Source: a virus. Taken from it: a stretch of 44,169 bases of DNA. The stretch's first letter is position 1. Every line of letters starts with the position of its first letter. Below are positions 16,743 through 18,817 of the stretch, one piece after another. A model generated the notes under the pieces. That model was given only the letters and a program-made list of their open reading frames with translations, was not told where the DNA came from and did not search any database. Location: positions 1 to 44,169 of IMG/VR virus record IMGVR_UViG_3300042319_000827; one strand, 5' to 3'. A program made the position numbers and the translations under genes.

Positions 16743-16999
16743 TTTTTGCCGGCTTTGCTGGCTGTTTCGGTGGTTGTTGAGCTTGCGCCATTCTGCTTCC
16801 CCTCTTCTCTGATTAAATATTGAAACGATTTGACGATCAGAAGCACTACCAGATAAACGATGACCGGCAGCACATAATCCCAGTTTAGCGACTTTTCAGC
16901 GCTCCAGTCACGGGAAATAATGAAGATCTTATCTGTGGCATATCCGAAGCCCAGGATGATACCAAGAGCGATAATGACGATGTTGTGTAAGTGGTTCAT
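16736..16999 (-). CDS. Small membrane protein, two helices
   Basis: ATG 16999 has GGAG upstream, giving 87 residues: an N-terminal helix (HNIVIIALGIILGFGYA), a charged loop, a second helix (VLPVIVYLVVLLIVKSF) and a polar Ser/Thr/Lys-rich tail. It is the first gene downstream of the structured RNA region 17030-17650 on the same strand, so that region could be its long leader. Holin-like topology; function not established. Confidence 0.6.
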   Translation of the reverse strand: MNHLHNIVIIALGIILGFGYATDKIFIISRDWSAEKSLNWDYVLPVIVYLVVLLIVKSFQYLIREEGKQNGASSTTTETASKAGKKC

Positions 17000-17029
17000 A
17001 CAATCTCCGTTTATTAATTTGGCCCTGAG

Positions 17030-17650
17030 CGCCCCGGCGGGCAAATCCGGTATGAAGGACTTTCAACCTTGGCTACACATTTGCCAGTCGGTCAGTCCGC
17101 TACAGCTGCACGGGAGGACTGCAAGCTAAAACTGCTGCTTCGATGTGATAACGAACTAAACCGCGACAACCGGCTGCAACATCCTGTCAGTCTCGCCGCG
17201 CGAAATTATCTGAGCTGGCCGGCACTGAACTCCGGCTTCGTCGGTAGGTTTACCCGCAACCCGACTGGACGCTCCAACGCCTTACGGCGCAGCGGCCCTC
17301 CCAAGGTGGATATGCGACCCAGCGCATCAGCCTGCGCATTCAGCTCATTGGTAAGGCATTCGCATTTGCACCTACACTCTTGGAATGTAGCCTGACAGGA
17401 TTACAAACAGAATGCCTTACCAATAAACTGGGCGGCATCTCTGCCGCGATAAGCCGCCATTACAGCGTAAAGTGCATAACGACCTCCAACTGTCCTGCCG
17501 CCACTCTCTTTGGCTGACGGTGTAGCCGCAGTGTATTCAGCTCATTGGTTTATGTGTTTGGCGTGGCTTTGAACCACACTAGGTTGCCCAACCCTGTTCC
17601 GCACTACCACGAGGCACATGATAGCCTTCAAACACATAACCAATAAACTG
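17030..17650 (-). ncRNA. Candidate large structured RNA (about 620 nt)
   Basis: No plausible protein is encoded here on either strand. Two related domains share closing stems: 17341-17361 pairs with 17410-17430 (21 bp), and 17538-17560 with 17629-17650. The outer parts are the same in both domains but the inner stems differ and are still fully paired, which is covariation. Each domain contains an 8-bp hairpin with loop CAA (17372-17390; 17561-17579). Further stems: 17495-17506 with 17520-17531, CGCC-GTAA-GGCG (17278-17289), GCGGCA-GAGA-TGCCGC (17432-17447) and CTATCATG/CGTGGTAG (17604-17624). GNRA loops and G-U pairs occur only on the minus strand, fixing the orientation. It may be ROOL- or GOLLD-like or a new family. 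The ends are approximate. Confidence 0.7.
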
Positions 17651-17777
17651 ATTAAAAAGCCCCGCACGATGGAACGATTGGGGCTGCTTCTAACTTCATG
17701 AAACCTATACGGGCAATATAGGATTCAGATGTGCGACAAACTAAAAGCCTACGCACACTTGCCAACCACTGTTATGC
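17649..17777 (-). ncRNA. Candidate small RNA with own promoter and terminator
   Basis: About 125 nt lie between a predicted promoter (17784-17812) and an intrinsic terminator (17654-17685). The stretch has no ORF but forms hairpins GTGCG/CGCAC (17731-17735 with 17752-17756) and CCTATA-N7-TATAGG (17704-17722) before the terminator stem. It could be a stand-alone regulatory RNA or, with terminator read-through, the 5' part of the larger structured RNA downstream. Confidence 0.5.
17654..17685 (-). terminator. Intrinsic terminator of the small RNA
   Basis: On the minus strand AGCCCC pairs with GGGGCT (17680-17685 with 17658-17663) around a 16-base loop, followed directly by TTTTTAAT. The T tract is present only in this direction. 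Confidence 0.65.
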
Positions 17778-17783
17778 GATTAA

Positions 17784-17812
17784 ACAATAACCGCAAACAC
17801 TCACCATGTAAA
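17784..17812 (-). promoter_or_regulatory. Promoter for small RNA / structured RNA, with shared motif
   Basis: Read on the minus strand: TTTACA (17807-17812), 17 bases, TATTGT (17784-17789). The shared motif GCTTTACATGGTGAG starts at 17814 and overlaps the -35 box, in almost the same register as at 13815. Confidence 0.5.
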
Positions 17813-17813
17813 G

Positions 17814-17990
17814 CTATTCGGCAGAAATTATTTTATTAATCCTCCGATGCCGCCTTGTTCTGCATCTGGAGCGGCATATCACATGCCGTTTGTTTCTGGA
17901 TATGAACCACTCCTGGCACTCGTCGCATTGGCGCAGCTGCGCGCCACAATAGGCGCATTTACCCTTGGCTGTAACCCAGTGCTGTTTCAT
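17814..17990 (-). CDS. Small zinc-finger protein (CGNR-like), 58 residues
   Basis: MKQHWVTAKGKCAYCGAQLR begins at 17990. Cysteines form CAYC, then CDEC ten residues later, then CRSRC followed by a very basic tail (RTRRHRRINK). The second half (CQEWFISRNKRHVICRSRC) resembles the CGNR-type zinc finger, where W..S.N.R..C precedes a Cys and an Arg-rich helix. It probably binds nucleic acid. It lies just upstream of the RNA promoter and structured RNA on the same strand, so it might regulate or bind them; that is speculation. Confidence 0.6.
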   Translation of the reverse strand: MKQHWVTAKGKCAYCGAQLRQCDECQEWFISRNKRHVICRSRCRTRRHRRINKIISAE

Positions 17991-18082
17991 TCTGCGCCTA
18001 CTCTGTTGGACCTAAATTGGATCAACTATACCCCCTTTACGCCGCGCGCTCTGTGCGGTGACTAAATAAGAGGCGTAAAGAA

Positions 18083-18817
18083 ATGGCTACATTCAATGAA
18101 GACATCGTAGGCGGTCGCGGTATGGGTGGCGGCGTGTTCAGTGGTGGTGATTCCGGTGGCGTGATCATGGGCCTGCTGCTTGGTCGGCTTGGTCTGTTTG
18201 GCAATCAGGACAACAACGGCAATGGTCGCTGCGTGACGCAAGACGATCTGAACGCGCAGACGCTGGGCGACATTAAAGCGTCAATTCCATTTAACGAGGC
18301 CCAGGTGCAGCTGGCGCTGGCCGGCGCCGTTTCCGGGTTGACCACTCAGGCAAACAATAACACCCAATACATCACCGCACAGACCCAGGCGCTGGCACTC
18401 GCTCAGGCTAATTTGGCTGCATCGCTGTCACGTGATATTGCGGGCGTAGATACGAATGTGGACAGGCAATCAGCGCAGATCCAAGAAACCATCTTTCGAG
18501 ATGGCGAAGCGACCCGAGCGCTGATCACATCAAACCGCATCGCGGACCTTGAGCAGCAACTGACCGTTGCGCAGCTGCGTGAATCCGAGCAGCGCGGCAT
18601 TAACCGCGAAATCGTCAATACCAACACGATCACAGTGTCGATGAATCAGCAGCAGTCGCAGCAACAGCAGCAAATGCAAGCGCTGCAGTGGCAGTTAAAC
18701 CAGCTGTGCGGCGCGTTTGGTCAAGTAGCACGCGCGACTAATAGCACGGTACAGGTCGGCAATACTGGCACCGTTGCCGGCGCACAAGCCGCCAATCCAA
18801 CAAACGTGGTGGCTTAA
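18083..18817 (+). CDS. Gly-rich N-terminus / coiled-coil protein, 244 residues
   Basis: GAGG lies upstream of ATG 18083. Residues 1-45 are Gly-rich with a short hydrophobic run (GGVIMGLLLGRLGLFG). Residues 75-190 are Ala/Gln/Leu helical, including QQQSQQQQQMQALQWQLNQL, and the C-terminus is Thr/Ala/Asn-rich. This layout suggests an oligomeric coiled-coil protein that may touch a membrane or particle. It is transcribed against the capsid genes and ends at a strong bidirectional terminator. No family recognised. Confidence 0.7.
   Translation: MATFNEDIVGGRGMGGGVFSGGDSGGVIMGLLLGRLGLFGNQDNNGNGRCVTQDDLNAQTLGDIKASIPFNEAQVQLALAGAVSGLTTQANNNTQYITAQTQALALAQANLAASLSRDIAGVDTNVDRQSAQIQETIFRDGEATRALITSNRIADLEQQLTVAQLRESEQRGINREIVNTNTITVSMNQQQSQQQQQMQALQWQLNQLCGAFGQVARATNSTVQVGNTGTVAGAQAANPTNVVA

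Follow-up and report, generated by a model that had tools for sequence, protein, structure and literature searches.

The minus strand of positions 17650-17040 in a 44,169-nt viral sequence (IMG/VR record IMGVR_UViG_3300042319_000827, the whole of which is here called the window) is confirmed by sequence analysis as a structured noncoding RNA of ~620 nt. Part of it, termed module C (17209-17348, minus strand), is a previously uncatalogued tRNA-shaped building block that recurs with the same frame and a different insert, known from hundreds of phage and prophage sequences, including enterobacterial phages such as P1 as well as Pseudomonas, Burkholderiales, and Halomonas genomes. Comparison of its copies has shown it to be a structured module whose pairing is under selection, and in which the frame stays constant and the inserts can be exchanged.

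The RNA separates the capsid gene from the structural genes that come next. The gap in coding noted in the initial annotation is real, but it is nearer 1.1 kb (17003-18082) than 620 nt, being bounded by a small gene starting near 17002 and a plus-strand gene at 18083. On the minus strand, an ORF scan found no frame of at least 60 aa inside the RNA region or the gap, and the blastn alignment of positions 17355-17231 with Klebsiella phage VLCpiS13b (74% identity) contains gaps of 4 nt and 1 nt, as expected of a noncoding sequence. This homologue is intergenic and lies just 5′ of tRNA-Arg and tRNA-Met genes. A 108-aa TTG ORF on the plus strand was rejected as merely mechanical. Between the plus-strand gene and the RNA, a possible small minus-strand ORF of 58 aa (MKQHWVTAKGKCAYCGAQLRQCDECQEW..., 17990 to ~17817) has paired CxxC motifs and is zinc-ribbon-like. 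In two relatives by capsid, L330 and L331 (51% and 45% identical), the RNA is absent and the next gene follows ~25-50 nt after the capsid gene, so the RNA behaves as an accessory insertion.

The predicted fold of the 621-nt minus strand has an energy of -260 kcal/mol (z -4.9; equalled by 0 of 20 shuffles), whereas the plus strand folds less well (z -2.8). The large minus-strand structured RNA proposed in the initial annotation is upheld, its pairing being kept by compensatory change in homologues, and the sequence and coordinates recorded for it were correct on re-reading. Two outer stems, CAGTTTATTGG/CCAATGAGCTG, pair 17650-17640 with 17548-17538 and 17430-17420 with 17351-17341, and the inner stems of the two domains differ in sequence and are still paired. 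The minus strand likewise has the GNRA-type loops described there (GCGGCA-GAGA-TGCCGC and CGCC-GTAA-GGCG), the pair of 8-bp hairpins that close on CAA, and, in a T-arm-like hairpin at 17578, the loop TTCAAAG. Some points require correction. Each outer-stem strand has an alternative second partner, and the evolutionary unit is not one 620-nt class but a small module of ~60 conserved nt plus a variable insert, among several modules strung together. The part conserved elsewhere, 17348-17209, overlaps and extends beyond the second hairpin, and the hairpins themselves are not the conserved part.

Module C, supported by a covariance model and the VLCpiS13b homologue, has on the minus strand of the window the 5′ strand of stem P1, UGAGCUG (17341-17347, partner 17217-17211). 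It continues with the D-arm-like hairpin P2, GCGC-AGGCUGAU-GCGC (17322-17337), an 85-nt variable insert at the place of the tRNA anticodon arm (17237-17321, within the stretch shared with VLCpiS13b), and the T-arm-like hairpin P3, GCCGG-AGUUCAGUG-CCGGC (17218-17236), whose loop pairs with that of P2. The 3′ strand of stem P1, CAGCUCA (17211-17217), abuts P3 without any spacer. The general order is stem P1, AA, P2 with loop AGGCUGAU, insert, P3 with loop AG(A/U)UCAGC(A/G), and the closing strand of stem P1; the window shows all the features by which module C is recognized, namely stem P1, P2, P3, complementarity between the P2 and P3 loops (CUGA/UCAG plus one G-U), and the tRNA-like order. The window insert has its own hairpin, GUCGGG...ACCGAC, in common with VLCpiS13b, and is otherwise unique. 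An exact 18-mer of this hairpin had no match in viral contigs, so the insert appears nearly private.

Module C was defined by comparing VLCpiS13b-linked regions. Blocks of the VLCpiS13b region recur in more than 800 phage records (Felix O1-like, Kuttervirus, Skatevirus, and N4-like phages, P1, and lambdoids), most of which match another block, the tmRNA-like tag modules described below, rather than that of the window. The pattern TGAATGCGNAGGCTGATNCG matched at least 120 viral contigs and at least 119 genome contigs, against ~7-8 matches expected by chance in 257 Gb of genomes for its 18 fixed bases, by our own estimate. Among the hosts are many Enterobacterales, Pseudomonas, Pandoraea, Achromobacter, Massilia, Variovorax, Janthinobacterium, Halomonas, and Xanthomonadales, and a few odd matches in metagenome-assembled genomes may be due to chance. 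The complete geometry of stem P1 and P3 was present in 257 of 282 distinct copies, and a geometry scanner returned no module from 184 kb of shuffled sequence. The window element had no blastn match in E. coli genomes or plasmids; no prevalence in E. coli is claimed, since many of the 2,512 E. coli genomes matched in a separate search share with its query the 5′ end alone and not module C.

Every part of the frame covaries, that is, stem P1, P2, P3, and the pairing between the P2 and P3 loops. When 39 copies are aligned without the window, 96.9% of cells are paired and the covariation score is 0.250, compared with 0.088 ± 0.008 after shuffling (reached in 0 of 500 trials) and 0.03-0.08 when the alignment was slid, so the check proposed in the initial annotation, that homologues keep the pairing, came out in favor of the RNA. 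Stem P1 is 100% paired in these 39 relatives, with double changes, and occurs in dozens of compensated forms, such as GTTGTGGTG/CACCACAAC, GATTGGATG/CATCCAATC, and TGCAGATG/CATCTGCA, with TGAGCTG/CAGCTCA in the window. The apical pair of P2 is complementary in all of the first 126 copies (CG 106, TA 12, AT 4, TG 3, GC 1). The loop-loop pairing changes as a unit, from GCUGA/UCAGC to GUCGA/UCGAC: with P3 chosen blind to its loop, a P2 loop with CTG goes with TCAG in 198 copies and with TCGA in 1, and a P2 loop with TCG goes with TCGA in 14 of 15. A covariance model, R1, built from the 39 copies with the window excluded, found a single match in the record, at 17348-17209 on the minus strand (72.9 bits, E ~1.5e-15, E-values being rough owing to short calibration), and also finds phage P1 69,817-69,918 (63.7 bits) and E. 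coli prophages. It is very improbable that the locus is not an RNA at all but a DNA-level repeat, a recombination site, or a set of chance hairpins; the mosaicism of the modules would suit such an origin, and inverted repeats fold as DNA too, but the covariation, including that between loops, largely refutes it, and G-U pairs, strand asymmetry, and the single-strand fold also speak for RNA.

The module C family is tRNA-shaped in the sense of its connectivity, a claim derived from sequence of which charging or ribosome entry forms no part. The outer stem of 7-13 bp is followed by a 2-nt AA linker, a 4-bp stem with an 8-nt loop, the insert, and a 5-bp stem abutting the outer stem, so that stems and linkers are connected as in tRNA and the tRNA-like domain of tmRNA. 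Some copies end in NCCA, found directly after the helix in 18 of 119 modules where ~2 are expected. A strict T-arm pattern was present in 4 inserts and in 10 of 249 upstream regions, and controls had none. In contrast to tRNA, module C mostly lacks an anticodon arm, has Watson-Crick kissing loops, and is not called by tRNA finders. In the window, NCCA is absent (CAGCUCA is followed by GAUAA), the strict T-arm pattern occurs once on the entire minus strand, at 17578 in hairpin A, and ARAGORN made no call. The tRNA-shaped cloverleaf suspected in the initial annotation pointed in the right direction, but neither ARAGORN nor the Rfam tRNA model recognizes one in the window. These resemblances, together with several module arrays that lie within or adjoin tRNA clusters, might also suggest a tRNA-mimicking decoy that soaks up host enzymes or tRNA-targeting defence nucleases or toxins, an arms race diversifying the inserts. 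We consider this unlikely, as only a minority of copies have NCCA or T-arms, the D/T-like loops kiss by Watson-Crick pairs, unlike those of tRNA, and the window copy escapes the tRNA searches.

All families of Rfam 15 were searched at their gathering scores and then at E up to 10 in 16900-17900, without a credible match, which agrees with the new class suggested as one possibility in the initial annotation. The identity with ROOL or GOLLD considered there is not supported, as neither model (RF03087 and RF02032, respectively) matched even at E up to 10, the GOLLD test being made with the Rfam model of its conserved 3′ half. The likeness to the two is of a general kind. ROOL and GOLLD are large, phage-borne RNAs, often near tRNAs, with kissing loops and a conserved frame plus a variable part that sometimes includes tRNA pieces (PMC12286853). 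On this analogy, kissing loops might join copies into an RNA-only multimer with the insert inside as a linker; this seems rather improbable, because the window RNA matches neither in sequence or structure, its conserved unit is much smaller (merely ~60 nt), and kissing loops within one module are most parsimoniously intramolecular.

The nearest named relatives of module C would be STnc100 (RF02076) and PasD, judged by layout. Read against module C, the RF02076 alignment has the same arrangement: the outer stem is followed by GGUGAAU, an early hairpin, and a middle part that varies, and the final hairpin, CCGG...CCGG, lies directly against the CACC strand. STnc100 occurs in lambdoid prophages, and its copies are transcribed in EHEC, one of them as seen by northern blot (PMC5331693). 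PasD1 and PasD2 of EPEC, which lie near antiterminator Q, are reported structural relatives of STnc100 and are Hfq-bound, with RNA partners detected by RIL-seq and functions not yet elucidated (PMC13192938). Unlike STnc100, module C has other P2 and P3 loops and a longer, covarying kissing pair, and its window copy belongs to an RNA of several modules. In distribution, PasD is known chiefly from pathogenic E. coli; module C occurs in several orders of proteobacteria and also in virulent phages. RF02076 matches a second module of phage P1 at 33.4 bits (gathering score 47), where R1 scores 24.9 bits, but neither the window nor the C1-type modules match it, the window at E up to 10. The link to STnc100 is thus one of layout and a single overlapping locus, and the window RNA is placed beside STnc100 rather than within it. 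It is probable that module C and STnc100 represent related branches, and the window RNA is possibly a variant near the STnc100 kind within one superfamily. A STnc100-like variant with the short loops GCUAA/AAGCA is present at L003:3176-3299 (phage P1) and L009:1550-1658.

The rest of the window RNA lies on the same strand. Hairpin A (17538-17650) folds into a cloverleaf-like shape in which the T-arm-like GUGUGG-UUCAAAG-CCACGC abuts its stem, and hairpin B (17341-17430), an H-type module, is a 21-bp helix, CAGTTTATTGGTAAGGCATTC/GAATGCCTTACCAATGAGCTG, whose 3′ strand is common to stem P1 of module C. Linker domain X (17431-17537), which includes the GAGA hairpin at 17447-17432, is a putative element suggested by complementarity and constrained folding; it would be closed by an alternative pairing of the outer strands of A and B. 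The 3′ region (17040-17208), with the stem GGCAAAT/ATTTGCC (17085-17079 with 17046-17040), is predicted from folding and its membership in the RNA is uncertain. A terminator-like hairpin with a T-run just upstream of hairpin A (17659-17675, minus strand) comes from a consensus scan in which such hits were no more numerous than in shuffles. Homologues of A, B, X, and the 3′ part (17208-17040) were not found outside the window, and the case for hairpins A and B is therefore their internal duplication.

The window array can be written a'-A-a-X-a'-B-a-C-a''. Strand a (AATGAGCTG) can pair either to the left with a', closing A or B, or to the right, closing X or C; because one strand of A and one of B also serve in the outer stems of the adjacent elements, two foldings compete. 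At 19 of 115 loci, an upstream helix of at least 14 bp shares the strand of stem P1; shuffled sequences gave none. The strand sharing is real and would suit a bistable chain, but the modelled energies, calculated without a loop-loop term, favour the left register (-190.9 vs -174.0 kcal/mol). Such strand sharing, along with short ORFs lying closely 3′ of some copies (as read by eye), could be taken as a sign of a cis-acting switch in the late transcript, in which the A/B-closed and X/C-closed registers control termination, processing, or downstream translation. We regard this as doubtful, considering that the energy difference of 17 kcal/mol in the window (again without the kissing term) lies with one register, that VLCpiS13b-type arrays can form the inner hairpin and module C simultaneously, and that modules stand beside unrelated genes in both of their niches, after Q and after CI.

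These niches emerge from IMG/VR contigs, in which the module is most often found downstream of antiterminator Q or CI-type repressors and upstream of lysis genes, and some copies adjoin promoter-like or terminator-like sequence as read by eye. The inserts are mostly ~27-180 nt long and highly diverse (176 clusters in 243 modules), and the same insert occurs under different stems, one cluster of 9 using 7 different stem P1 strands. The idea of inserts as strongly folded cargo was rejected, since their folding does not exceed that of control sequence (mean z -0.49 vs -0.39); this level of folding fits a partly single-stranded pairing region.

Several other elements accompany module C in other phages. 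Modules of a third type are found at L003:2600-2835, at L011:1593-1716, and downstream of module C in L030; their last hairpin carries the loop ACGUAA or CCGUAA between GCCGG/CCGGC stems. In phage P1, plus-strand H and C modules are overlapped by annotated minus-strand coding sequence, namely the ORF plp and the end of upl (L003:2600-3016, equal to P1 69,502-69,918), and this ORF annotation may be spurious. The tmRNA-like tag modules, which adjoin these RNAs at L002:3785, L003:2042 (phage P1), L004:1510, L005:1555, L007:1447, L008:1309, L009:1336, L010:1257, L015:1020, and others, consist of AUAAAU followed by a 10-codon frame and encode 11 different tags, for example ANDDVVLMAA*, ANDDLMMVAA* (phage P1), ANDNVFLAVA* (Felix O1-like), and ANEEVYLAVA*. 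They give sub-threshold matches to the Rfam tmRNA models and no ARAGORN call, and are possibly split or permuted phage tmRNAs. Such a module was rejected as a part of the window RNA, as the tag pattern is nowhere in the window, although it is present in neighbouring phages. In the Felix O1-like Salmonella phage Mushroom (L004), a tRNA-like domain with CCA follows directly after the tag module (L004:1665-1746); the Rfam tmRNA match there reaches 22 bits, with the two ends of the model alone matched. The tRNA genes of this phage are annotated on the strand opposite to the ARAGORN calls.

Taken together, the reading we prefer, with a probability of roughly 0.4, is that of a phage sRNA transcribed late and acting in trans, whose frame would give stability and whose insert would give specificity. 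We infer that the strung-together modules may be transcribed from the minus strand together with the structural operon and then processed. The core would fold into a tRNA shape, with an outer stem and two hairpins of 4 and 5 bp whose loops kiss, the second of them stacking on that stem, and would thereby keep the RNA stable and present a rapidly exchanged insert. By analogy with STnc100 and PasD, the insert, as the putative specificity part, would act in trans on phage or host RNAs, making the molecule a regulatory sRNA in infection or lysogeny. This sRNA reading draws support from the covariation, the switching of the loop pair as a unit, the exchange of inserts, and the R1 match in the window. 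Additional support is provided by the transcription of STnc100 (PMC5331693), the Hfq binding of PasD (PMC13192938), and the phage P1 locus shared by STnc100 and R1, as well as by the promoter- and terminator-like sequences beside some copies and the position of Q or CI upstream and lysis genes downstream. It is weakened by the fact that the window copy sits within a 600-nt assembly and is not a lone sRNA, by the strong hairpin in its insert, and by the failure of C1-type modules to match STnc100 in Rfam.

At a broader level, we put at about even odds a superfamily of tRNA-shaped phage RNA cassettes, with STnc100 as an outlying branch, that would combine a fixed kissing-loop frame with freely exchanged cargo and be arrayed together with tRNAs and tmRNA-like tag modules in phages both virulent and temperate, P1 among them (the tag modules also in Felix O1-like phages). 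If true, this would be a general RNA accessory-gene system overlooked by gene finders. A conserved frame into which different inserts can be exchanged is reminiscent of a cargo system. One covariance model provides a ready probe for phage RNAs in the gaps left by protein annotation, and module C sets in a wider frame of reference the expressed prophage sRNAs STnc100 and PasD, for which functions are still to be worked out. Structured RNAs that annotation has missed appear to be present in phage P1 and other laboratory phages, and the whole accessory RNA class may therefore be testable at once in standard strains.
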